IMG/VR virus record: IMGVR_UViG_3300043119_000535
Coordinates: 1 to 28,303 of that record
Length of the DNA: 28,303 nucleotides
DNA from: a virus
Strand: one strand, 5' to 3'
Below, in pieces: positions 3-28,303 of the stretch. The position numbers and the translations under genes are program-made. The notes under the pieces are model-generated. The model ran no database searches. It saw only the letters and a program-made list of their open reading frames with translations, and was not told the origin of the DNA. How positions within the stretch are numbered: the first letter of the stretch is position 1; each line of letters begins with the position of its first letter.

Positions 3-440
3 GAGACCGTTGAACGAACCAGCAAGCCGCTATACGCTATGAAAGACGGTGAAGACTACGGTTATGAGTCAGCAAGTTCAGATGCAGATAAAGCCGCAGG
101 ACTAAAGGCTAAGCCGTTGGTGATTTTTAGATACCTTGGGCGCAAAGGTGACACCTATCAAGTCGTGCTGATAAACGATAAATTCAGAAACGTTTTTGAG
201 GTAACAAAGCCTTTTGAATTTGCAAAAATCCATTCGTTTTACGGCGACAGATATCAGGGCAAAGAAATGATGCGTTTAACTGACGGCACGCTGGCCGCTG
301 CCGCAGTGCGTGATGCCATGCTTGGGCATATGAAACAATTCACTCGAGTTGAAAAAGGCGTTGTTACAACGCTATGGGTTGATGGTGAAAAAAAATCACT
401 TGTCGTTGAGGCTGCTGCTACATCTGGCGTAGTCCAATAA
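3..440 (+). CDS. Hypothetical protein, 5' end outside window
   Basis: The frame is open from the left edge of the window, so the ATG at 39 is probably internal and the true start lies upstream. The visible part is about 146 residues, hydrophilic and mixed alpha/beta, with a KPLVIFRYLGRKGD segment and no transmembrane helix. I do not recognise the family. It lacks the helix-turn-helix look of Mor/C regulators, which often sit just before the lysis genes in Mu-like phages. Its DNA is visibly richer in A/T than the structural genes that follow, so it may be an accessory (moron) gene of different origin. It ends 59 nt before the endolysin, with a candidate late promoter between them. Confidence 0.6.
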   Translation, partial: ETVERTSKPLYAMKDGEDYGYESASSDADKAAGLKAKPLVIFRYLGRKGDTYQVVLINDKFRNVFEVTKPFEFAKIHSFYGDRYQGKEMMRLTDGTLAAAAVRDAMLGHMKQFTRVEKGVVTTLWVDGEKKSLVVEAAATSGVVQ

Positions 441-499
441 CTACAGCGACTTAAACCAATTTACTAGCCCCCTTCGCGCGCACGCGGGATCATCCCGCC
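436..499 (+). promoter_or_regulatory. Candidate late promoter and leader before the lysis cassette
   Basis: The block TTTACTAGCC at 460-469 recurs exactly at 10167-10176, in front of the protease gene. Aligned without gaps, the 34 nt ending in this block match at 23 positions. Both copies then carry CACGCG(A)GGAT and reach the ATG at nearly the same distance (40 and 41 nt from the start of the block). TACTAG could serve as a -10 hexamer, and there is no clear -35, as expected for an activator-dependent promoter. In Mu, the lys and I genes are each preceded by a C-activated late promoter. The sequence similarity is observed; the promoter role is inferred. Confidence 0.6.
484..498 (+). repeat. 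Perfect 7-bp inverted repeat over the endolysin ribosome-binding site
   Basis: GCGGGAT-C-ATCCCGC is a perfect palindrome around one central base, ending one base before the endolysin ATG at 500. It contains the only purine-rich Shine-Dalgarno candidate (GGGA, 486-489). If it folds in the mRNA it would hide the ribosome-binding site and could delay endolysin translation. The copy of the leader at 10191-10201 keeps the GAGGAT but not the right arm of the palindrome. Confidence 0.5.
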
Positions 500-1180
500 A
501 TGCTCGCAACATCCAACAGCCCCTCAGTAACTGTTCCGCTTGCCAAACAAGTCGGCCAGCTGCCCCCACGCCCGGTTGACCTGATCGTCATCCATTGCTC
601 GGCCACGCCAAGTGGCAAGCCGCTCACCCTTGGCAAACCGGGTCAGCCCGGCTACCAAAACGCACCCAAGATCATCAATGCCTGGCACGCTGCGCGGCAG
701 TTCAAGCGCCGCAGTGAAGACGTTCGGGCTTTCAGCTCGGCGCTGCCGTCCATTGGCTACCACTACGTCATTGACCTGAGTGGCGAGGTGTGGTCTGGCC
801 GGGGTTTAAACGAGGTGGGTGCGCACGCGCAGTTCTTTAATGCCCGCAGCATTGGCATTTGCCTGGTGGGTGGGTCTGAGCGCGACGCCAAGTACACCGC
901 CGCCCAATGGAAGAGCCTGGCCGAGGTGGTCACCATGCTGCTGGTGCAGTACGGTCTGCCAGCCGCAGCGCCAAAGCGCGCCAAGAGCGACTACAACCCC
1001 ACCGGCTACAGCGTCAGTGGCGGCGTGTGTGGCCACCGCGACGTGAGCCCCGACACCAACAAAGACGGAACGATTCAAGCCTTTGAGTGGCTCAAAACCT
1101 GCCCCGGCTTTGACGTGGCCGCGTGGCTCAAAAACGGCATGCAGCCCACGGCTGCGCAAATTTGTGAGGTGAAACCATGA
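500..1180 (+). CDS. N-acetylmuramoyl-L-alanine amidase (phage endolysin)
   Basis: A 226-residue amidase_2/PGRP-type enzyme that would cut the amide bond between N-acetylmuramic acid and L-alanine in peptidoglycan to release phage. Visible motifs are the first Zn-ligand histidine in VIHCSAT (about residue 32), the YHYVID core strand (about 88), and near the C-terminus GHRDVSPDTNKDGTI followed by KTCPGFD, which supply a second histidine and the cysteine ligand typical of the family. There is no N-terminal signal peptide, so export would need a holin. It heads the lysis operon, in the place of Mu lys. Its stop overlaps the next start (ATGA). Confidence 0.93.
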   Translation: MLATSNSPSVTVPLAKQVGQLPPRPVDLIVIHCSATPSGKPLTLGKPGQPGYQNAPKIINAWHAARQFKRRSEDVRAFSSALPSIGYHYVIDLSGEVWSGRGLNEVGAHAQFFNARSIGICLVGGSERDAKYTAAQWKSLAEVVTMLLVQYGLPAAAPKRAKSDYNPTGYSVSGGVCGHRDVSPDTNKDGTIQAFEWLKTCPGFDVAAWLKNGMQPTAAQICEVKP

Positions 1181-1386: not shown

Positions 1387-1964
1387 CTGCGATGGCCGTG
1401 CGCCTGTTGGTTGCGCTGGCGCTATTGGCTGGCGCGTACTGGGCGGGCGATCACAACCGCAATAACGCCTGGCTGGCCAAGCAGGCCAGCGTCGAGCGCG
1501 ATGCGCATGCCAAGTATGAAGCCGAGGTGATGCGCGGCAACGATGCATTTGGCGCATTCCTGGTCGAGCACCAGGCCATGCAAGGCAAGTTTGAAAACCT
1601 GACGGAGAAATTCAATGAACTTGGAAAACGTGCCCCTCTACTCGCTGCTCGCAGTCCTGGTGTTGTTTGCGGGCCTGCTCCTGGTGAAGCCGAAATGGGT
1701 GTGGCTGCTGTACCTGATGTGGGTGCTCCTGATCGCCTTACTACTGGTGCTGTCTGGATGTGGAACAGCGCCCTTACAGGTACAGACCAGCCCTCCGGTG
1801 CCTGCGGCCTTGCTGATACCTCCCAGGCCGCCTGTGCTGCTGCAACCACCGCCACCGTCGACGACGCCTGGGCCAACCACAAAACCAACGCCCAGCTCTG
1901 TGCCGAAGACCGGCTCGTACACCAGCGCCTTTTTGATTATTTAACCTCAAGGAAAACCAAATGA
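1383..1964 (+). CDS. Rz: Rz-like inner-membrane spanin (i-spanin)
   Basis: A 193-residue protein with an N-terminal signal-anchor (about residues 3-20, VRLLVALALLAGAYWAG) followed by a charged, helical periplasmic stretch (about 25-80) suited to coiled-coil formation, then an Ala/Gly-rich region and a polar C-terminus with several cysteines. I-spanins join an outer-membrane lipoprotein to fuse the two membranes in the last step of lysis. The Rz1 gene lies entirely inside it in another frame, the classic spanin arrangement. It is longer than lambda Rz (153 residues); the extra length covers the part that overlaps Rz1. Start and stop both overlap neighbours by ATGA. Confidence 0.8.
   Translation: MTAMAVRLLVALALLAGAYWAGDHNRNNAWLAKQASVERDAHAKYEAEVMRGNDAFGAFLVEHQAMQGKFENLTEKFNELGKRAPLLAARSPGVVCGPAPGEAEMGVAAVPDVGAPDRLTTGAVWMWNSALTGTDQPSGACGLADTSQAACAAATTATVDDAWANHKTNAQLCAEDRLVHQRLFDYLTSRKTK
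1615..1944 (+). CDS. Rz1: Rz1-like outer-membrane lipoprotein (o-spanin), embedded in Rz
   Basis: The sequence has a lipobox LSGC (cysteine at residue 49 from this start) after a hydrophobic stretch, followed by a proline-rich tail (PPRPPVLLQPPPPSTTPGP), the hallmarks of Rz1. The whole gene lies in another frame of Rz. Two starts are possible. ATG 1615 has a good Shine-Dalgarno (CGGAG, 8-9 nt upstream) but adds a second hydrophobic segment before the lipobox. ATG 1717 has no visible ribosome site but gives a textbook short lipoprotein signal with cysteine at residue 15. The mature protein is the same either way. The partner is the Rz product. Confidence 0.8.
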   Translation: MNLENVPLYSLLAVLVLFAGLLLVKPKWVWLLYLMWVLLIALLLVLSGCGTAPLQVQTSPPVPAALLIPPRPPVLLQPPPPSTTPGPTTKPTPSSVPKTGSYTSAFLII

Positions 1965-2488
1965 AAAACACCTTTAAAAGCACATTAATTTATGTGCTGA
2001 TGTGCATGGCCGTAGCGGCCTGCGCTGTGCTGGCCACCAAGCCCGCCCACGCCGTCGCCTTGAGCGACTACCTGGAAAACAAACTCACCGACCATGTCTT
2101 TCGCGGTCAGGTGTACACCGCGCCCACCACCATTTACGTGGCGCTGTTCACCAGCGCGTGCAGTGACGCGGCTGCTGGTACCGAGGTAACAGGCGGCAGC
2201 TACGCCCGGCCTGGTGTGACCACCACGCTGGCCAACTGGGCAGGCACACAAGCCGCAGCCAGCACCGCCGCCAGCAGCGGCACCAGCGGCACCACCAGCA
2301 ACAACGTGGTGGTGACCTTTGCCACGCCCAGCGCTGGCTGGGGATTGGTCACGCACATTGGCCTGATGGACGCGCTGACCAGCGGCAACATGCTGGTGTG
2401 TACAGCGCTCACGGTTGGCAAGACGATCAACAGCGGCGACACGGTCAGCTTCCCGGCTGCGTCCCTCACCAACCAGATTGACAACTGA
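1961..2488 (+). CDS. Gp80-type phage tail-fibre-like protein with N-terminal signal peptide
   Basis: Residues 32-175 look like the small 'phage tail fiber' domain seen in many phages: LSDYLENKLTDHVFRG, then PTTIYVALFTS, EVTGGSYARPGV, a Ser/Thr/Ala-rich link, and a C-terminal THIGLMDA...GNMLVCTALT...INSGDTVSF. In front is a typical Sec signal: a basic start (MKNTFK), a hydrophobic core and an AHA cleavage motif before VALSDY. AVAAC also makes a weak lipobox. The usual family start corresponds to about LSDYLEN, so the leader is extra. The ATG has a good AAGGA site and overlaps the Rz stop by ATGA, so the long form is probably what is made. The Gp80-like family name is from memory. Confidence 0.7.
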   Translation: MKNTFKSTLIYVLMCMAVAACAVLATKPAHAVALSDYLENKLTDHVFRGQVYTAPTTIYVALFTSACSDAAAGTEVTGGSYARPGVTTTLANWAGTQAAASTAASSGTSGTTSNNVVVTFATPSAGWGLVTHIGLMDALTSGNMLVCTALTVGKTINSGDTVSFPAASLTNQIDN

Positions 2489-2521
2489 TCCACCAGCTCG
2501 TCACCAGGCACAGCGCAAAAC

Positions 2522-3343
2522 ATGACCATCACCACACGCGACCAGCTTATTGACGGCCTTGGCAACAAGTCGACCCGGCTTGTGGTTGACAAGGCCAGCA
2601 TTGCAAACACGGCAGCCGGGCAAATCCACAGCCTGTGGCGTGCCACGGGCGTGCCCGGCCAGGGGGCCATACCGGCAGCCGCAGCGGTGTGTACCGGCGC
2701 GCTGCTGGGTGCAATGGGGTTTGCCGATGTGGTTGCACCCGTTGAGCAGTACCTGGGGCAGTTTCGCCTGACCACGGGTAACAACGCCACCAGTGTTGAA
2801 ATACACGACAGGCTGGCACACATGGGCGGCTTGAACGGCACGGTTCTTACCGCGCAAACCGTGGGTGTTGATGTATCAGGCGCAACGAACAACCTGCCCG
2901 ACCGCATTGGCGACACCAACTACAGCGACGTGCAGTGGTTCCTGGAGTGGTACACCGACACGGGCGCGACATCGGTCAATCACACCTTGGCCGTGACCTA
3001 TGACGACGATAGCACTGGCAATGTGGTGTTGACGGCGGTAGGTGCCACAGTACGCGCATCGCGCAAGATACCTATCCTGCCAGCCGTCTCGGGCCGCTTT
3101 ATCAAGCGCATAAACACCGATACGCTGTCAGCCACCACGGGCACGGCAGGCAACTTTGGCGTGACGGCCACCCGGCTGCGGGCAGGCATTGCCACCGACA
3201 TAGCCAACAAGACCGAGGTGTACGACTGGGCCAAGCTGGGCTTTCCCAATGTACCCAACCAGGCTTGCCTGTACATGCTCATGCTGTGCAGCACCACCAC
3301 GACTGGCGTGGTGCGTGGCGGCGGCAAGATTGTGTTTGGGTAG
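2522..3343 (+). CDS. Hypothetical phage structural protein, fibre cassette
   Basis: A 273-residue protein of no family I can name. The N-terminal half has an Ala/Gly-rich hydrophobic part (about residues 45-70) containing CTGALLGAMGFAD. The rest is beta-rich with many Thr/Val/Gly strands (DVQWFLEWYTDTGATSVNHTL; GNVVLTAVGATVRASRKIPILP), as in phage fibre or carbohydrate-binding domains. It has no signal peptide. It lies between the Gp80-type protein and the repeat protein and is transcribed with them, so a role in a fibre or other surface structure is inferred from context only. The Shine-Dalgarno is weak. Confidence 0.65.
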   Translation: MTITTRDQLIDGLGNKSTRLVVDKASIANTAAGQIHSLWRATGVPGQGAIPAAAAVCTGALLGAMGFADVVAPVEQYLGQFRLTTGNNATSVEIHDRLAHMGGLNGTVLTAQTVGVDVSGATNNLPDRIGDTNYSDVQWFLEWYTDTGATSVNHTLAVTYDDDSTGNVVLTAVGATVRASRKIPILPAVSGRFIKRINTDTLSATTGTAGNFGVTATRLRAGIATDIANKTEVYDWAKLGFPNVPNQACLYMLMLCSTTTTGVVRGGGKIVFG

Positions 3344-3349
3344 CCAGGT

Positions 3350-4381
3350 ATGGTTCGCTTTCCTGAAATTGACTTGCCAGGCGGCATTGGCGGCGGTGAT
3401 GACGTGTGGGACGAGGGCGGTGCGGGACTGCTGTTGGCCGACGACTACTTTGCCGCCGCGCTTGTTGACCTGGCAGCCAACGCCGCCAGCACGGCCAGCG
3501 CATCGGCAGCGCTGCAACTGTTCAAAAACCTGCAAGCTGCTGCACTGGGCCAGGCTACGGCCACAGCTGACTTGTCGGTGGTGGCTGGCAGTGGTGTGGT
3601 GGACCTGGCTGCCAACGCCCTGGGGCAAGCGGCTGCAAGCGCCGGCTTGTTCAAAGCCGCCAGCCTGGCAGCCAACGCACAAGGCCAAGCCGCTGCGACC
3701 GCCAACATAAGCAAGGGCGTGAGCTTGAGTGCCGCCAGCCTGGGTGTGGCCACGGCCACTGGGTCAATCAGCAAGTCTGTGCCGCTGGCTGCAAGCGCTG
3801 TGGGCGCTGCCGTGGCCGGTGGGCAGCTGTCTATCACCGTGGTGCTGGGCGCTAACGCTTTGGGCCAAGCCAGCAGCAACGCCACGCTGGCTTTGATGAT
3901 TAATTTAAGCGCTGCTGCTGTTGCCCAGGCACAGGCCAGCGCCGCGCTGCAAGTAGGCGGCGTTGCCGCGCTGGCGGCCAACGCCCAGGCACAGGCTACG
4001 GCGGGGGCCACGCTGATGCTGCAAGTGCCTTTAACTGCCGCTGCACTGGCACAAGCAGCCAGCACCGGGCACTTGGTTTTGACGGTGCCATTGACGGCCA
4101 CTGCACTGGCGCAGGCCAGCAGCTCGGCTGGGCTGGCGCTGACGGTTAACTTGGCCGCTGGTGCCTTGGGGGCCAGCACGGCCAGTGCGGCGCTGCAAGT
4201 ACTGCTGCCCAAACTGGTGACCACACCAGGCTACTTGGCGCGCAGCGCTGGGCGTTGCTGGGCAGCCAGCGGCAAGCCGCGCAACTATGCCGCCCGTGCC
4301 GTTGCTAGAGCCTGGTGCGCCAGTGGCAAGCCCCGCAGCTACCGCGCCAAGGCACTGCGCCGCAACTGGAGCGCCGCATGA
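3350..4381 (+). CDS. Ala-rich 20-residue tandem-repeat protein, putative fibre shaft
   Basis: A 343-residue protein. After an acidic, Gly-rich N-terminus (1-35) come twelve repeats whose leading leucines fall at residues 41, 61, 86, 106, 126, 146, 166, 186, 208, 228, 248 and 268. The spacing is 20 residues, with one insertion of five and one of two. The consensus is roughly LxANALGQAxASAxLxLxV. Such regular short hydrophobic/small-residue repeats suggest a beta-solenoid or other fibrous shaft. The C-terminus (295-343) switches to a basic repeat of 18 residues (Tyr295, Tyr313, Tyr331; WxASGKPR twice). The stop overlaps the next ATG (ATGA at 4378). The family was not recognised; the fibre role is inferred. 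Confidence 0.7.
   Translation: MVRFPEIDLPGGIGGGDDVWDEGGAGLLLADDYFAAALVDLAANAASTASASAALQLFKNLQAAALGQATATADLSVVAGSGVVDLAANALGQAAASAGLFKAASLAANAQGQAAATANISKGVSLSAASLGVATATGSISKSVPLAASAVGAAVAGGQLSITVVLGANALGQASSNATLALMINLSAAAVAQAQASAALQVGGVAALAANAQAQATAGATLMLQVPLTAAALAQAASTGHLVLTVPLTATALAQASSSAGLALTVNLAAGALGASTASAALQVLLPKLVTTPGYLARSAGRCWAASGKPRNYAARAVARAWCASGKPRSYRAKALRRNWSAA
3470..4210 (+). repeat. Coding tandem repeats, about 60-nt period, 12 copies
   Basis: The DNA encodes twelve diverged 20-residue units. At the DNA level they share pieces such as CTGGCAGCCAACGC and CTGGGCCAAGC, but copies differ at many synonymous sites. The array is therefore old or was selected for protein sequence rather than recently amplified. 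Confidence 0.8.
4232..4378 (+). repeat. Basic 18-residue coding repeat (2.5 copies)
   Basis: Two and a half copies of a 54-nt unit encode Y-x-A-R/K-A-(4)-W-x-A-S-G-K-P-R-x. The two full copies share GCCAG(C/T)GGCAAGCC. The unit is Arg/Lys-rich, unlike the uncharged shaft in front of it, and ends the protein. Confidence 0.75.
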
Positions 4382-5084: not shown

Positions 5085-5378
5085 ATGAGCTACCAAACCA
5101 CCATCACTGAAGACCGCCGCCTGAGCCTGCTGCTGGTGCTGGCCGAGACGCCTGGCTACAGCGCCAACGCCTTTTTGCTGCGCGATGCGATCGACGGCAT
5201 TTATGGCCATAGCGCCAGCGTTGACCTGGTGCGCACAGATATTGCCTGGCTGGCCGAGCAGCAGCTGGTGACCAGCCGCAGCACCGGCGATGTGACGCTG
5301 GCCACGCTGACGGCACGCGGCGCAGATGTGGCCGCTGGCCGTGCCACTGTGCCAGGCGTTAAAAAGCCGATGCCCTGA
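5085..5378 (+). CDS. Winged-helix phage protein, VpaChn25_0724/Mu gp26 type
   Basis: A 97-residue protein. RRLSLLLVLAETPGYSANAFLLRDAIDGIYGHSASVDLVRTDIAWLAEQQLV is a winged helix-turn-helix, followed by a beta wing (STGDVTLATLTARG) and the family's characteristic C-terminal AAGRATVPGVKKP. Proteins of this kind lie directly before the small terminase in Mu-like phages. The role is unknown, though DNA binding is likely from the fold. It starts 6 nt after the DUF2730 gene. Confidence 0.8.
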   Translation: MSYQTTITEDRRLSLLLVLAETPGYSANAFLLRDAIDGIYGHSASVDLVRTDIAWLAEQQLVTSRSTGDVTLATLTARGADVAAGRATVPGVKKPMP

Positions 5379-5391
5379 AGGGCGGTTTCAA

Positions 5392-5964
5392 ATGACTGAA
5401 AAAAGCACCTTCAAAAGGAAGCCATCACGGCCCAGCCAGATCACCAAGCTTGACCCGTCCATCAAGCAGGCGGTAGACACCGCTGTGCGCGAAGGCCGCG
5501 CCACGATCGACGAGATCGTGCTGCTGGTCGACCAGCTCGGTGGCGAGGCCAGCCGCAGCAGTGTGGGCCGCTACGTCAAGAATGCCAGGGAGCGCATGGA
5601 AGACTACCGCCAGGCCACCCAGGTGGCAGCGGTGTGGGTGGACAAGCTGGGCAAAGAACCAGAAGGCGACGTGGGCCGCATGCTGCTGGAGATGCTGCGC
5701 GTGGTGGCGTTTAAAACCATTGGCGACATTGAGACCGCCAGCCCTGAAGACCTGATGTTCCTGGGCAAGGCATTAAAAGACTTTGCTGGCGCTGACAAGC
5801 TGGCGGTCGACAAAGCCTTTGCGCTGCGCAAGCTGATTGCTGCTGAAGCGGCCAAGGTGGCTGCTGATGTCACCAAGACGGCCAAAAAGGCCGGGCTGAC
5901 TGACGAGACCATTGAGATGATTCGTGCCAAGATTTTGGGCATACCCGAGGCTAAGAAGCAATGA
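5392..5964 (+). CDS. terS: DUF3486 family protein, putative small terminase (Mu gp27-like)
   Basis: A 190-residue protein with a basic N-terminus (KSTFKRKPSRPSQITKLDPSIKQAVDTAVREG) and a helix-turn-helix-like segment (TIDEIVLLVDQLGGEASRSSVGRYVKNARERM, about residues 38-68), then a helical region ending in Lys-rich helices. It is the DNA-recognition subunit that would pick the packaging site and hand DNA to the large terminase encoded directly after it, with ATGA overlap. The start at 5392 is chosen over an upstream in-frame ATG (5326) that falls inside the previous gene; GGGCGG lies just before it. Confidence 0.82.
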   Translation: MTEKSTFKRKPSRPSQITKLDPSIKQAVDTAVREGRATIDEIVLLVDQLGGEASRSSVGRYVKNARERMEDYRQATQVAAVWVDKLGKEPEGDVGRMLLEMLRVVAFKTIGDIETASPEDLMFLGKALKDFAGADKLAVDKAFALRKLIAAEAAKVAADVTKTAKKAGLTDETIEMIRAKILGIPEAKKQ

Positions 5965-7565
5965 GCCAGGAATCCGGTACCGGAATCATCACGCCTGAGA
6001 TGCGCGAGCTGGCAGGCAAGGCGGACTACCGCTTTGACCAGCGCGCCCCGGCTGTGCTGCTGCCCTACCAACAGCGTTGGCTGGCCGACAAGAGCCAGGT
6101 CAAGCTGGTTGAAAAGTCGCGCCGGATTGGCCTGAGCTGGGCCGAGGCCTGTGACTCGGTGCTGTGCGCTGCCGCCGCCAACGGACAAGACGTTTGGTAC
6201 ATCGGCTACGTCAAGGACATGGCCATTGAGTTCATCCTCGACTGCGCACAGTGGGCCGAGCACTTCAACAGTGTGGCCGACGCCATTGAGGTGAGCGAGG
6301 AGCTTTGGAGCGAGGGCGACGAGCGCAAGTCCGTGTTTGTCTTCAGCATCAAGTTTGCCAGCGGCAACCGCATCACCGCGCTGAGCAGCAAGCCACGCAA
6401 CCTGCGCGGCAAGCAGGGCCGCGTGATACTGGACGAAGCCGCCTTTCATGAAGCGCAGGGCGAGATACTTAAGGCGGCAATGGCGCTGCTGATCTGGGGC
6501 GGCGACCTGCGCATCATCAGCACGCATGATGGCGATGACAACCCTTTTAACCAGCTGATCAAAGACGTGCGGGCAGGCCGCTTGCCCTACAGCGTACACC
6601 GCTTTACCTTTAGCGAGGCGCTGGCTGAAGGCCTGTACAAGCGCGTGTGCCTGCGCACCGGCGAGGACTGGAGCCCCGAGGCACAAGCCGCCTGGGAGGC
6701 CAAGATACGCGCCAACTATGGCGACGACGCGGAGGAGGAGCTGGACTGCGTGCCCAAAAGCGGCACAGGTGCCTTCCTCACGCGTGAGCTGGTAGAGCGC
6801 AACATGGTCAAGGGCTTGCCAGTGCTGCGTGACCAGCGGGCACCGGACTTCACCTGGAAAACCGAACATGTGCGCAGCACTGAGGTGAACGACTGGTGTG
6901 AAGAGCACCTTGCCCCACTGCTGACCGCGCTGCCCAAAACCGAGGTGAGCTTTGTAGGCGCTGACTTTGCCCGCACAGGCGACCTGACGGTGCTGCTGCC
7001 GCTGCTGCAACGCCAAAACCTGACGCGCCATGCGCCCTTTGTGGTCGAGCTGCGGGGCATGCCGTTTACCCAACAGCAGCAAATACTCTGGTACATCATC
7101 GACCGCCTGCCGCGCTTTGCAGGCGCTGCGCTTGACTCACGCGGGCTAGGCATGCAAATGGCCGAGGCCACCGCGCAAAAGTATGGCGGGCCGGAGATTA
7201 TTTTGATGATCCAGGCCACCCAGCCTTGGTACCTGGAAAACCTGCCGCCCTACAAAGCCGCGTTTGAAGACAACCTGATTCAACTGCCAATCGATGCCGA
7301 CATCCTGGCTGACCACCGCGTGCCCCGTGTGATCAAAGGCATTCCGCAAATACCTGACCTGCGCACCGTCGACGCACAAAAGAAAAAGCGCCACGGCGAC
7401 AGCTTCATTGCTGGCGCGCTGGCCTGGCATGCCAGTCGCCTGCTGGCTGCGCCTGGCCAGTATGACTACCAGGCCGGGCCGGACGTGGCCACGCGCTGGG
7501 ACGCGCCCGCCAACAACCGCGACGACAGTGATGTATCCGTTTCCGATGGCGGTGGCGCCTGGTAA
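5961..7565 (+). CDS. terL: Terminase large subunit (Mu gp28-like)
   Basis: A 534-residue packaging motor. The ATPase half shows a modified Walker A (EKSRRIGLSW, residues 51-60), a Walker B (VILDEA, with D158/E159) and a coupling-type STHDGDDNPF motif. The nuclease half shows an RNase H-like arrangement of acidic residues: D335 in VGADFARTGDL, D392 in ALDSRGLG and an aspartate in HGDSFIAGALAWH. It cuts phage DNA and drives it into the prohead through the portal encoded next. Length is usual for the Mu gp28 family. Confidence 0.93.
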   Translation: MSQESGTGIITPEMRELAGKADYRFDQRAPAVLLPYQQRWLADKSQVKLVEKSRRIGLSWAEACDSVLCAAAANGQDVWYIGYVKDMAIEFILDCAQWAEHFNSVADAIEVSEELWSEGDERKSVFVFSIKFASGNRITALSSKPRNLRGKQGRVILDEAAFHEAQGEILKAAMALLIWGGDLRIISTHDGDDNPFNQLIKDVRAGRLPYSVHRFTFSEALAEGLYKRVCLRTGEDWSPEAQAAWEAKIRANYGDDAEEELDCVPKSGTGAFLTRELVERNMVKGLPVLRDQRAPDFTWKTEHVRSTEVNDWCEEHLAPLLTALPKTEVSFVGADFARTGDLTVLLPLLQRQNLTRHAPFVVELRGMPFTQQQQILWYIIDRLPRFAGAALDSRGLGMQMAEATAQKYGGPEIILMIQATQPWYLENLPPYKAAFEDNLIQLPIDADILADHRVPRVIKGIPQIPDLRTVDAQKKKRHGDSFIAGALAWHASRLLAAPGQYDYQAGPDVATRWDAPANNRDDSDVSVSDGGGAW

Positions 7566-9158: not shown

Positions 9159-9300
9159 CCCCGTTTTTAAGCCCCTGTGGGGCCGAGTGGCTATGGTGGG
9201 CAGGAAAAATCAAAACGGAGGCTGCTTAAAGGGTATTTAAAGGGTCAAAACGCCGTTTTGGGCGTAAGACACAACCGTACTTTGCAGAAAACCGCAGCCG
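9159..9300. promoter_or_regulatory. Intergenic region with stacked repeats, function unknown
   Basis: This is 142 nt without a gene inside an otherwise compact operon. It holds a short stem GCCCC-TGT-GGGGC (9171-9183), two direct repeats TTAAAGGGT at 9226-9234 and 9237-9245 spaced by 11 bp (about one helical turn), and directly after them a perfect inverted repeat CAAAACG-C-CGTTTTG (9246-9260). A related CAAAACGG occurs at 9211. There is no T-run for a terminator. The layout resembles an operator or protein-binding site; that is inference. Confidence 0.45.
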
Positions 9301-10142: not shown

Positions 10143-10207
10143 TTCAACTCCTACGAACTAAAGCTTTTTACTAGCCGCCCCGCTGCCGTCACGCGAGGAT
10201 AGCGGCC
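10143..10207 (+). promoter_or_regulatory. Candidate late promoter and leader before the protease/scaffold gene
   Basis: Second copy of the element described at 436-499. TTTACTAGCC (10167-10176) is exact, with AACT, ACGA/GCGA and TAAA matches upstream in register and CACGCGAGGAT downstream (GAGGA acts as Shine-Dalgarno, 9 nt before ATG 10208). Its position in front of the I gene corresponds to Mu promoter PI, as the first copy corresponds to Plys. Shared activation by a C-type protein encoded to the left of the window is inferred. Confidence 0.6.
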
Positions 10208-11395
10208 ATGAGTAAAGCCCACCTGAAAACCCAAACATTGCCTGGCAATGTGGCGGTGTTGACGTTTCAGATTGGCAGCGAGGCTGGCCCAAGGGCGCAG
10301 CTATTGCCCGCTGGCGAATTTAAAGCAACGGACGGCAGGCCGATGCCGTGGGGTGCATGGCGTCTGACTGATGAGAACGCGCCCGCTGTTGTGGCGCTGG
10401 CCAACAGTCGCGCCAATGAATTTGTCATCGACTACGAACACCAGACACAGCTCGCTGAAAAAAACGGTCTGCCTGCGCCCGCTGCTGGCTGGTTCAGCAA
10501 AGTTGAATACCTGCCCGGCAAAGGTTTGTTTGCCACGGATGTGCGCTGGACTGCGCGTGCCAAGGCGTACATAGGCGGCGACGAATACAAATACATCAGC
10601 GCCGTTTTTCTATTCGACAAAAACACCGGCGTGGTGCAAAAGCTGCTCTGCGCAGCACTCACCAATGACCCAGGACTTGACGGCATGGATGCCGTCCAGC
10701 TCGCGGCTTTGACCGCACGATTTTCAACCACCAACCCGGAGCCCACTGATATGAATCCATTACTTGCAAAGCTGCTTGCAGCTTTGAACCTGCCTGCTAC
10801 TGATGCGACCACCGAGGCGCAAGCCCTGGGCGCTGTTGCCACATTGAAGGCCGCTGTGCCTGCCGTGCCTGCTGCTGTGACCAAGGTGCTCGGCCTGGCT
10901 GACAAAGCCACCGAAGCCGAAGTGACCACGGCAGTGACCGCACTGAAGGCGAGTGCCGACAAGGCCGCTGAGCTGACCACCGAGGTTGCCACGCTCAAAG
11001 CGGCAAACCCAGGCGGCAACCCTGACCCCACCAAGTTTGTGGCGCTGGACAAGTTCACCGCGTTGAACAACGAAGTGGCAGCACTGAAGGCCGCTGGCGT
11101 TGACCGCACGGTTGACGAGCTGATTTCCGAAGCCCGCCTGGCTGGCAAATGCTCGCCAGTGGTTGAGGAAGTCTGGCGCGGCATTGGCAAGGTCGATGTT
11201 GCCCAGCTCAAGGCGCTGATTGAAAAGACGCCTGCCAACCCCGCCCTGGCTGGCTTGAGCCAGACGAACGGCAAGCAGATTGAAAAGCGTGACCCCAAGG
11301 CCGCTGCCACTGCTGACGAGCTGGCCATGTGCAAAAACATGGGCTTGACGCTTGAGCAGTTCCGCGCTGGCGCTGACGCTGAAGCGGCAGTCTGA
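10208..11395 (+). CDS. I: Prohead protease with scaffold (Mu gp32, I/Z)
   Basis: A 395-residue Mu I-type protein. Residues 1 to about 165 form the protease domain: AQLLPAGEF, NEFVIDYEHQTQ, AAGWFSKVEY, KYISAVFLF and a conserved LCAALTNDPGLDGM segment. Residues from about 182 are an Ala-rich, probably coiled-coil scaffold (repeated TLKAA/TALKA/AALKA stretches) ending in a typical DELAMCKNMGLTLEQFRAG tail. The scaffold shapes the prohead and the protease removes it during maturation. A strong internal start at 10751 probably yields the scaffold alone, as Mu gene Z. Confidence 0.9.
   Translation: MSKAHLKTQTLPGNVAVLTFQIGSEAGPRAQLLPAGEFKATDGRPMPWGAWRLTDENAPAVVALANSRANEFVIDYEHQTQLAEKNGLPAPAAGWFSKVEYLPGKGLFATDVRWTARAKAYIGGDEYKYISAVFLFDKNTGVVQKLLCAALTNDPGLDGMDAVQLAALTARFSTTNPEPTDMNPLLAKLLAALNLPATDATTEAQALGAVATLKAAVPAVPAAVTKVLGLADKATEAEVTTAVTALKASADKAAELTTEVATLKAANPGGNPDPTKFVALDKFTALNNEVAALKAAGVDRTVDELISEARLAGKCSPVVEEVWRGIGKVDVAQLKALIEKTPANPALAGLSQTNGKQIEKRDPKAAATADELAMCKNMGLTLEQFRAGADAEAAV
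10751..11395 (+). CDS. Z: Scaffold protein Z from an internal in-frame start
   Basis: ATG 10751 (MNPLLAKLLAALNLP) lies in frame inside the protease gene at codon 182, where the protease domain ends. A clear GGAG (10738-10741) sits 9 nt upstream, better than most ribosome sites in the window. In Mu, gene Z is likewise the 3' part of gene I, made from its own start. The product would be a 214-residue scaffold without the protease. The site is seen in the sequence; its use is inferred. Confidence 0.6.
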   Translation: MNPLLAKLLAALNLPATDATTEAQALGAVATLKAAVPAVPAAVTKVLGLADKATEAEVTTAVTALKASADKAAELTTEVATLKAANPGGNPDPTKFVALDKFTALNNEVAALKAAGVDRTVDELISEARLAGKCSPVVEEVWRGIGKVDVAQLKALIEKTPANPALAGLSQTNGKQIEKRDPKAAATADELAMCKNMGLTLEQFRAGADAEAAV

Positions 11396-22499: not shown

Positions 22500-22556
22500 A
22501 CCGCCCATTAAACCGATTTAAAAGACCCAACGCGGCACACCACAGAAACTGCTCAG

Positions 22557-23021
22557 ATGGACTTAGCCCTGACTTACGACCCCAAGCTGCAAGCCTTTGA
22601 CCTTGGTGTGAAAGGCGCTGACCTGGCTGGCGACGACACGCTGGCCAGCGCAGTGCTGGTGTCGCTGCTGAGCGATCGACTGGCTGAAACACACGAGGTT
22701 GCACCCGGCCAGGATCGCCGGGGTTGGTGGGCTGACAGCTACGCTGACAACCAGCACAAAACAGGCTCACGCCTGTGGCTGCTCGACCGTGAAAAGCAAC
22801 TACCGAGCGTGGTGCAACGCTGCAAACGCTACTGCGAAGAGGCGCTGGCCTGGTTCATTGAAGACGGCCTGGCCAGCTCGATTGTGGTGACTGTGTTTAC
22901 GCCGCGCATGGGCTGGCTGGTGGCCATGATCAACTTCGTCATCAACGGCGCAGCGCGCAGCTACCGCTTTGAGTTTGACCAAAACACGCAGGTGTGGCGG
23001 CTGGCTGGGGAGGCTTTTTAA
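22557..23021 (+). CDS. Baseplate wedge protein (Mu gp46, T4 gp25/P2 gpW-like)
   Basis: A 154-residue protein matching the GP46 family: LASAVLVSLLSDRLAE, the strongly conserved RRGWWADSYADNQHKTGSRLWLL, and LAWFIEDGLASSIVV. It joins baseplate and sheath and triggers sheath polymerisation. It is separated from the spike gene by 57 nt containing two TTAAACCG copies (near 22503 and 22509-22522), with no clear Shine-Dalgarno. Confidence 0.9.
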   Translation: MDLALTYDPKLQAFDLGVKGADLAGDDTLASAVLVSLLSDRLAETHEVAPGQDRRGWWADSYADNQHKTGSRLWLLDREKQLPSVVQRCKRYCEEALAWFIEDGLASSIVVTVFTPRMGWLVAMINFVINGAARSYRFEFDQNTQVWRLAGEAF

Positions 23022-26592: not shown

Positions 26593-27429
26593 ATGCACAA
26601 AAACTTACAAGCTGATCTCAGCTCGCCAACGTTCATTAACAACCAACTCCCAACGGCCAAGCCGCTCATCCCCTGGGTGGGCGGCAAGCGCCGCCTGGCG
26701 CAGTTCATACTGCCCACATTCCCTGAGCACACCTGCTACGTTGAGCCGTTTTGCGGTGCTGCTGCGCTGTTCTTTTTGAAGCCCCCGGTCAAGGTCGAGG
26801 TGCTCAATGATGTCAACAGCGACCTGATCTGTTTGTACCGTGTGGTGACCCATCACCTCGAAGAATTTATTAGGCAATTTAAGTGGGCTTTAAACAGCCG
26901 TGAAATGTTCAAGTGGCTGCAAGACACGCCGCCTGAAACGCTGACCGATATCCAGCGCGCTGCGCGGTTTTATTACCTGCAAAAGTCGGCCTTTGGCGGC
27001 AAGGTGCAGGGCCAGTCCTGGGGCACGGCCACCACGGCTAAAGCCAGCATTAATTTGCTGCGGATGGAGGAGGACTTGAGTGCCGTCCACCTTCGGCTGC
27101 ACCAGGTGTTTATTGAGCACCTGGACTGGGCCACCTGCATCGCCAAATATGACCGCCCACACAGCCTGTTTTACCTTGACCCGCCATACTACGGCACCGA
27201 GGGTTACGGCGTTGATTTTGGGCTGGAGCAATACGACCAGATGGCCGATCTGCTGCGCAGCATGAAGGGCAAAGCGGCGGTCAGCGTGAACGACATCCCA
27301 GCCATGCGCAAAGCCTTCAAAGGACTGCACATGAAGGGGCTGACGACCAACTACACGGTGGGCAATTCAGGCGCTGGCAGGCAGGCCAAAGGCGAGCTGC
27401 TGATTGCCAACTTCAAGCTGCCCGCTTGA
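26593..27429 (+). CDS. dam: DNA adenine methyltransferase (Dam/D12 class)
   Basis: A 278-residue N6-adenine methyltransferase. It shows PWVGGKRRL (residues 27-35), the SAM-binding motif VEPFCGAAALFF (50-61), NDVNSDLI and the catalytic DPPY (196-199), in the order of the D12/Dam alpha group. It would methylate adenines in phage DNA, probably to evade host restriction. It lies after the fibre genes where Mu has its DNA-modification gene mom, so it may fill the same role by different chemistry. The target site cannot be read from sequence; GATC is only a guess. Weak Shine-Dalgarno. Confidence 0.92.
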   Translation: MHKNLQADLSSPTFINNQLPTAKPLIPWVGGKRRLAQFILPTFPEHTCYVEPFCGAAALFFLKPPVKVEVLNDVNSDLICLYRVVTHHLEEFIRQFKWALNSREMFKWLQDTPPETLTDIQRAARFYYLQKSAFGGKVQGQSWGTATTAKASINLLRMEEDLSAVHLRLHQVFIEHLDWATCIAKYDRPHSLFYLDPPYYGTEGYGVDFGLEQYDQMADLLRSMKGKAAVSVNDIPAMRKAFKGLHMKGLTTNYTVGNSGAGRQAKGELLIANFKLPA

Positions 27430-28075: not shown

Positions 28076-28097
28076 GGCTTAAAGCCCCGTTTAAGCC
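28076..28097. repeat. Perfect 8-bp inverted repeat near the right end
   Basis: GGCTTAAA-GCCCCG-TTTAAGCC is a perfect hairpin-forming inverted repeat about 100 bp from the putative right end, with no T-run after it. It may be a protein-binding site or a recombination structure; a terminator is unlikely. Confidence 0.6.
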
Positions 28098-28157
28098 GAT
28101 TGTGAGCAAATTGTGGACAACCCAGCACTAACCCCCAGCCTATCCTTGCTCCAATAT

Positions 28158-28190
28158 CGTGGCCCGTTTGCTCCACGAACGTGGCCGTTT
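28158..28190 (+). repeat. 22-bp-spaced direct repeats, putative transposase end-binding sites
   Basis: CGTGGCCCGTTT (28158-28169) and CGTGGCCGTTT (28180-28190) are direct repeats 22 bp apart, two helical turns, with a TCGTGG/CCACGA inverted pair (28157-28162, 28173-28178) between them. In Mu, the right end carries adjacent 22-bp MuA sites in the same orientation. The sequence then reads ACA, giving a CA terminus at 28192-28193, exactly where transposase homology on the other side ends. Alternatively this is the end of another IS (for example IS21 type) inserted in the IS3 element. Confidence 0.5.
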
Positions 28191-28192
28191 AC

Positions 28193-28303
28193 AAGACAGT
28201 CCACGCAGAACACCGCCTCCATGGTGTTGCTGATACGCCAGCTCAACACCCGCCTGGAGTACCAGTCGATGATGGCCACCAGATAGGCAAAGCCGCTTGC
28301 CAG
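28193..28303 (-). pseudogene. IS3-family transposase OrfB fragment (interrupted)
   Basis: Read on the minus strand from the right edge, the frame gives GFAYLVAIIDWYSRRVLSW, then RISNTMEAVFCVDCL, typical of the rve integrase core of IS3-family OrfB. Homology stops after FCVDCL, where EEAL or similar would be expected. The reading frame runs on to 28091 but with unrelated residues, so the second catalytic aspartate and the glutamate of the DDE triad are missing. The 5' part lies outside the window. The gene was probably broken by insertion of the prophage (or another element) at about 28190-28196. Confidence 0.75.

Follow-up and report, generated by a model that had tools for sequence, protein, structure and literature searches.

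A predicted Mor-type late promoter class with transcription starts on or near the start codons of lys, I and gp46 in Mu-like phages

The stretches upstream of lys, I and gp46 in a Mu-like phage probably form one class of late promoter, used by a Mor-family activator and starting transcription on or near the AUG, with leaderless or nearly leaderless mRNAs as the product. The window analysed here, meaning the whole stretch of DNA at its full length of 28,303 bases, is a late-arm fragment of this phage, and the left arm lies outside the fragment. In the mechanism we propose, a dimer of the activator would bind a dyad centred at about -43 in place of a -35 contact, and host RNA polymerase, presumably with sigma-70, would open the DNA at a degenerate -10 hexamer, gAnnnT. 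Transcription would then begin on the AUG or within about 3 nt of it, and lys, I and gp46 would be translated from leaderless or nearly leaderless late mRNAs.

Three copies of the element in the window

The preliminary description had recognised a shared element in front of the endolysin (lys) and protease (I) genes, and matches to an amidase endolysin and to a Mu-like protease I bear out both gene assignments. The window contained the exact shared block, TTTACTAGCC, at two sites only, 460-469 and 10167-10176. The lys and I stretches were identical at 23 of 34 positions up to and including this block, and the CACGCG(A)GGAT reported further down was recovered as CACGCGGGAT and CACGCGAGGAT. The distance from block to ATG, described as the same, proved near-equal but off by one base (30 nt for lys, 31 nt for I).

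The element is not limited to two copies, as had been thought. A scan of the window and its relatives for a loosened version of the shared core revealed a third copy, TAAACCGATTTAAAAG (22509-22524), before gp46 (ATG at 22557), and this copy was kept in the related records that reach gp46. Promoters at Mu-like places were correctly foreseen for lys and I but not in their number, which is three, with the third before gp46 rather than P; as described, no copy was seen before P or dam in the window scan. A matrix was built from all copies of the related elements, the three window ones included, and with these copies in its training set it scored 31.3 (gp46), 31.2 (I) and 27.9 (lys), against 14.2 for the next-best window site. 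The motif search proposed for the window and related phages showed the element conserved in relatives, the match is far beyond chance, and the idea of a late-promoter class shared by lys and I holds. The features of the three promoters are listed in Table 1.

Table 1. Genes and predicted promoter parts in the window
Feature	Position	Strand	Basis
lys, amidase endolysin, predicted leaderless	500..1180	+	Amidase_2; PHROG amidase/endolysin
lys promoter, putative activator dyad TAAA-ccaa-TTTA (452-463) with conserved flank CTAGCC (464-469)	452..469	+	kept in 10/10 lys copies
lys promoter, candidate -10 hexamer GATCAT	488..493	+	A26/T30 rule
lys, predicted transcription start, on ATG	500/501	+	Mu Pm geometry
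Inverted repeat GCGGGAT-c-ATCCCGC around lys -10, 3' arm adjoining ATG	484..498	+	9/9 lys copies
I, Mu-like head maturation protease	10208..11395	+	Mu-like_Pro, E 2e-91
I promoter, putative activator dyad TAAA-gctt-TTTA (10159-10170) with conserved flank CTAGCC	10159..10176	+	alignment of related copies
I promoter, candidate -10 hexamer GAGGAT; predicted start 10207/10208	10195..10200	+	column alignment, A26/T30 rule
gp46, baseplate wedge gene	22557..23021	+	PF07409 GP46
Third (gp46) promoter, putative dyad TAAA-ccga-TTTA (22509-22520), flank AAAGAC	22509..22526	+	relatives keep same before gp46
gp46 promoter, candidate -10 hexamer GAAACT; predicted start 22557/22558, on ATG	22545..22550	+	column alignment, A26/T30 rule

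Several other genes of the window were noted. A gene at 3-440, on the same strand and directly 5' of lys, has no family match and occupies the same place in two relatives; read-through from it would enter lys. Directly after lys, one frame is nested in another reading frame (1383-1964 and 1615-1944), with a proline-rich, lipoprotein-like product, and the pair has the appearance of embedded spanins. Between the lysis genes and the terminase (1961-4381) lie three frames, one of which matches a podophage fibre protein (Gp80) and two of which have no Pfam match; the frame at 3350-4381 is alanine-rich and repetitive. Towards the right end, a D12-class adenine methyltransferase (26593-27429) has no promoter of this class ahead of it. 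An open frame on the minus strand (28091-28303) continues past the end of the window and resembles an integrase-core (rve) transposase, the match falling just under the Pfam cut-off; an insertion sequence seems to lie at this end of the fragment.

Anatomy of the promoter class

We aligned 32 copies (10 lys, 12 I and 10 gp46) from 12 records including the window, taking the last A of TTTA as position 0. The near-invariant columns were TAAA (-11 to -8), TTTA (-3 to 0), A at 3, G at 4 and C at 6, and no conservation was found upstream of TAAA. The results revealed a fixed layout consisting of the dyad TAAA-N4-TTTA, the flank nWAGnC, a degenerate -10, gAnnnT, at positions 25-30, and an ATG 6-10 nt further on. 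A at 26 and T at 30 stood out in all three classes, and other downstream similarity was confined to single classes, so that the dyad, the flank, A26, T30 and the ATG are all that the three have in common. Of 28 non-redundant copies, 25 had A-NNN-T at position 26, and all 28 had it when a 1-nt slip was allowed; the best other position reached 3. Every aligned copy had ATG as its start codon, at position 37 or 38 in lys and gp46 and at 38 to 41 in I. The gap between candidate -10 and ATG in the window was 6 nt for lys, 7 nt for I and 6 nt for gp46.

The bases that sigma-70 reads most strongly are -11A and -7T, and the gAnnnT hexamer retains both. The window hexamers GATCAT, GAGGAT and GAAACT match TATAAT at 3-4 of 6 positions, with no TGn ahead and no -35 consensus. 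A Shine-Dalgarno sequence was missing at gp46, whose N-terminus, MDLAL, is conserved starting at Met1. There was a weak GGGA at lys and GAGG at I, neither of them conserved; in several I copies the upstream GAGG could act as a weak Shine-Dalgarno. This test is not decisive, because a Shine-Dalgarno is also missing from many ordinary genes of the window.

Predicted position of the transcription start

Pm, the middle promoter of Mu, lacks a -35 and is bound by Mor as a dimer; the 16-bp Mor element, centred at -43.5, consists of 5-bp arms separated by a G/C-rich spacer of 6 nt (PMC4287176, PMC4390567). In the Mu record, the element that we read as the Mor site, AGTAA-AGCCGG-TTAAT, lies at 9173-9188, and the annotated promoter span puts +1 at 9224; by the same reading of the coordinates, Pm has +1 at position 38 on the ruler used here and the last base of its -10, TATCCT, at position 30. 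The window class resembles Pm in its TAA..TTA-armed dyad with a G/C-rich centre, in the lack of a -35, in a -10 ending 30 nt past the arm and in a +1 at about position 38. Its dyad-to--10 spacing equals that of Pm, which places the predicted starts at position 37/38, that is, at the ATG. The dyad is present in all three window copies and would be centred at about -43 if transcription starts there. In all three promoters, transcription is accordingly predicted to start on the start codon, and the I transcripts may carry leaders of up to 3 nt. The class differs from Pm in what follows: Pm drives the middle operon, with the first gene 24 nt downstream and provided with a Shine-Dalgarno, whereas the window promoters precede late genes with the ATG at the predicted +1.

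This placement departs from the preliminary description, which had expected transcription to begin about 7 nt past TACTAG, taken as the -10. TTTA is an arm of the dyad, nothing is conserved on its upstream side beyond TAAA, and the conserved bases resembling a -10 come 25-30 nt past TTTA, so the predicted start falls at the ATG. Taken as a -10, TAnWAG would put a G at -7 in 31 of 32 copies, and TTTAnW would lack A at -11 throughout; TACTAG and TTTACT were ruled out as -10 elements by these column statistics of the 32-copy alignment. Judged by the aligned copies, TTTACTAGCC is half of the putative activator site and not a -10. It is accordingly unlikely that TACTAG (or TTTACT) sets a start about 7 nt downstream and that what follows up to the ATG forms a 5' leader, perhaps one containing a functional hairpin. 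TTTAAT and TTTACT do look similar to a -10, the would-be lys leader contains a covarying hairpin and some I promoters have a hairpin as well, but this reading gives no account of the TAAA arm, of A26/T30 or of the fixed distance to the ATG, and the gp46 promoters are mostly without a hairpin.

The candidate regulator and cultured BcepMu-like phages

The preliminary description had also expected a late-promoter regulator encoded to the left. The window fragment itself contains no Mor/C-family gene; in relatives one does lie at the left end, though on the strand opposite the late genes. Close relatives covering the left arm carry a single Mor-domain gene (PF08765), far left and on that opposite strand, and MuA, where found in relatives, is on the same opposite strand. 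A single left-end Mor gene on the opposite strand is the BcepMu-like arrangement. The Mu match of such a regulator in the phage collection is Mor, not C, suggesting that one Mor-type protein seems to perform the job of Mu's Mor-C cascade.

Cultured BcepMu-like phages provided a natural control. In Komp_PAO1_1, PhiKM and KP12, the class also precedes a lysis gene, the protease gene, a tail gene and gp25. In genes starting at position 56 or beyond, the stretch from the predicted start to the ATG usually contained a Shine-Dalgarno, GATGCT-gtctcc-accagatAAGGAGacacacATG being one case; examples with such a leader are the PhiKM holin and the Komp_PAO1_1 lys and tail genes, and the PhiKM and KP12 protease genes had only a weak one. 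Genes starting at 37-39, by comparison, directly follow the -10, as in CATTAT-tgggcgc-ATG. This pattern of leader versus no leader fits transcription from position 37/38 and shows the predicted leaderlessness to be a property of particular genes and not of the promoter as such.

In Komp_PAO1_1 (PQ287647), a hypothetical gene annotated on the minus strand at 5112-7241 overlies a 376-aa plus-strand frame (5163), which begins right after a promoter of the class and looks like the missing protease I. In PhiKM (32249/32260) and KP12 (24023/24034), matrix matches on both strands use one dyad, and each side has a -10 and a downstream gene with a Shine-Dalgarno; these are possibly divergent promoter pairs on one activator site. 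Such two-strand use, together with the symmetry of the dyad, would also suit an operator bound by a repressor or some other DNA-binding protein, with the promoters elsewhere and the -10-like bases incidental. We regard this as very unlikely, since A26/T30 at fixed spacing (28/28) and a fixed ATG distance are unexpected for a plain operator and the geometry is that of the activator site at Pm.

Independent scans

We scanned for a strict pattern composed of the dyad, the flank, A26, T30 and the ATG. The IMG/VR scan gave at least 98 distinct matches. Among the matches listed, 39 opened long frames in GC-rich DNA, nearly all of them lys, I, gp46 or gp25-type wedge genes; the gap from T30 to ATG in these 39 was 6 nt in 22, 7 nt in 16 and 9 nt in one. 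The remaining IMG/VR matches listed were chance-like, with the gap spread over 6-9 nt. A search of 401 host-family bacterial genomes with the strict pattern gave two matches, one of them at a prophage lys promoter, and the reversed control gave 0 matches. The genome of the closest relative contained exactly one match, at its own lys promoter.

For gp25-type genes, a single-protein query was too narrow; the genes were fetched by protein alignment and their upstream regions screened for the dyad core alone. This yielded 29 distinct dyad-bearing regions, with A26 in 29/29, T30 in 28/29, and the ATG at 37 in 27 and at 38 in 2. By the strict core, no dyad was found at 23 of the 52 tabulated gp25 loci. 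The gp25 copies also bear on a highly improbable alternative, namely that the promoter is as proposed but starts transcription upstream of the -10 and the mRNAs are read through an upstream GAGG/GGGA Shine-Dalgarno of which A26/T30 form part: GAGG does stand at suitable spacing in the window I promoter and some relatives, and GGGA in lys, but gp46 and most gp25 copies keep A26/T30 without either motif, and the variants GACG, GAGC and GAAA destroy the Shine-Dalgarno yet retain the A and T.

Applied to Mu, the matrix of the window class recovered neither Pm nor any late promoter, and in KS10 it gave no convincing match. The sites therefore differ from those of Mu, and the reach of the matrix is limited.

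Inverted repeat around the -10

The candidate -10 of the lys promoters sits within the loop of an inverted repeat, and the 3' arm of this repeat extends to the ATG or stops beside it. The repeat was present in 9 of 9 lys copies, swapping arms among copies weakened it (p 0.002), and the covariation of its pairs exceeded that of shuffles (4/500) and slid controls; most of the individual lys hairpins were not significant against dinucleotide shuffles. The gp25 promoters of related phages had the same arrangement, as in GGGGC-AATACT-GCCCC-ATG (13/18, p < 0.001). The I promoters placed their hairpin differently, and the gp46 promoters mostly had none. The hairpin was rejected as a core feature of the class on these grounds (mostly missing in gp46, shifted in I, most lys copies at shuffle level) and, after the arm-swap and covariation tests, was kept as a secondary feature of lys and gp25.

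At lys and gp25, we hypothesise that the repeat may silence read-through RNA. RNA reading in from upstream could fold at the repeat and hide the start codon, and a late mRNA starting at the AUG would be without the fold.

Discussion

Activator-dependent late promoters are already known in Mu-like phages, as are leaderless genes with an ORF-adjacent -10 in Deinococcus-Thermus (PMC12340547). The late promoters of Mu (Plys, PI, PP and Pmom) are C-dependent with poor -10 elements (PMC4461284). The window class is like them in its predicted dependence on an activator, in its place before lys and I and in its poor -10. It differs in the activator site, and in the Mu annotation a ribosome-binding site follows the promoter span at lys, I and com. 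The Mu late set comprises lys, I, P and mom, while the window has its third copy at gp46 and none at P or at a mom-like/methyltransferase gene.

The BcepMu-like phages Komp_PAO1_1, PhiKM and KP12 share with the window class the dyad, the -10 spacing, a predicted leaderless gp25 start and one Mor-family gene on the early strand; they differ in having more copies, some genes with a leader and Shine-Dalgarno, and a flank of ATATC or AAGCC. In the open-access literature, we found no published description of BcepMu-like late promoters of this class, no report of Mor-type late promoters starting on the codon or of a lys/I/gp46 set, and no transcript or binding data for this phage group.

Leaderless genes of Deinococcus-Thermus have a -10 motif just 5' of the ORF and no ribosome-binding site (PMC12340547). 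TANNNT alone suffices there, whereas the window class conserves a putative activator dyad and has G or C at -12. In the T4 lysozyme gene e, a helix hides the start in early read-through RNA, and the late promoter is so placed that the late RNA is without the 5' strand of the helix (PMC3014915). The T4 late RNA retains its ribosome-binding site, in contrast to the window late RNA, which would be leaderless and whose switch is conjectural.

Extending the scheme, we put forward tentatively, as a possibility we would not rate as probable, that across a wide class of Mu-like phages a Mor-type activator sets late mRNA starts on the AUG and that, at lysis and baseplate genes, an inverted repeat encloses the -10 in its loop; folded read-through RNA and active leaderless late RNA would then make up a built-in transcription-translation switch.

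If this reading is right, a simple rule (dyad, 24 nt, gAnnnT, 6-9 nt, ATG) would locate late promoters and true start codons across a large and little-explored group of Mu-like and BcepMu-like phages. It would also predict activator-set leaderless late phage mRNAs in proteobacteria, and the lysis control of these phages would be directly testable in a cultured P. aeruginosa PAO1 phage.
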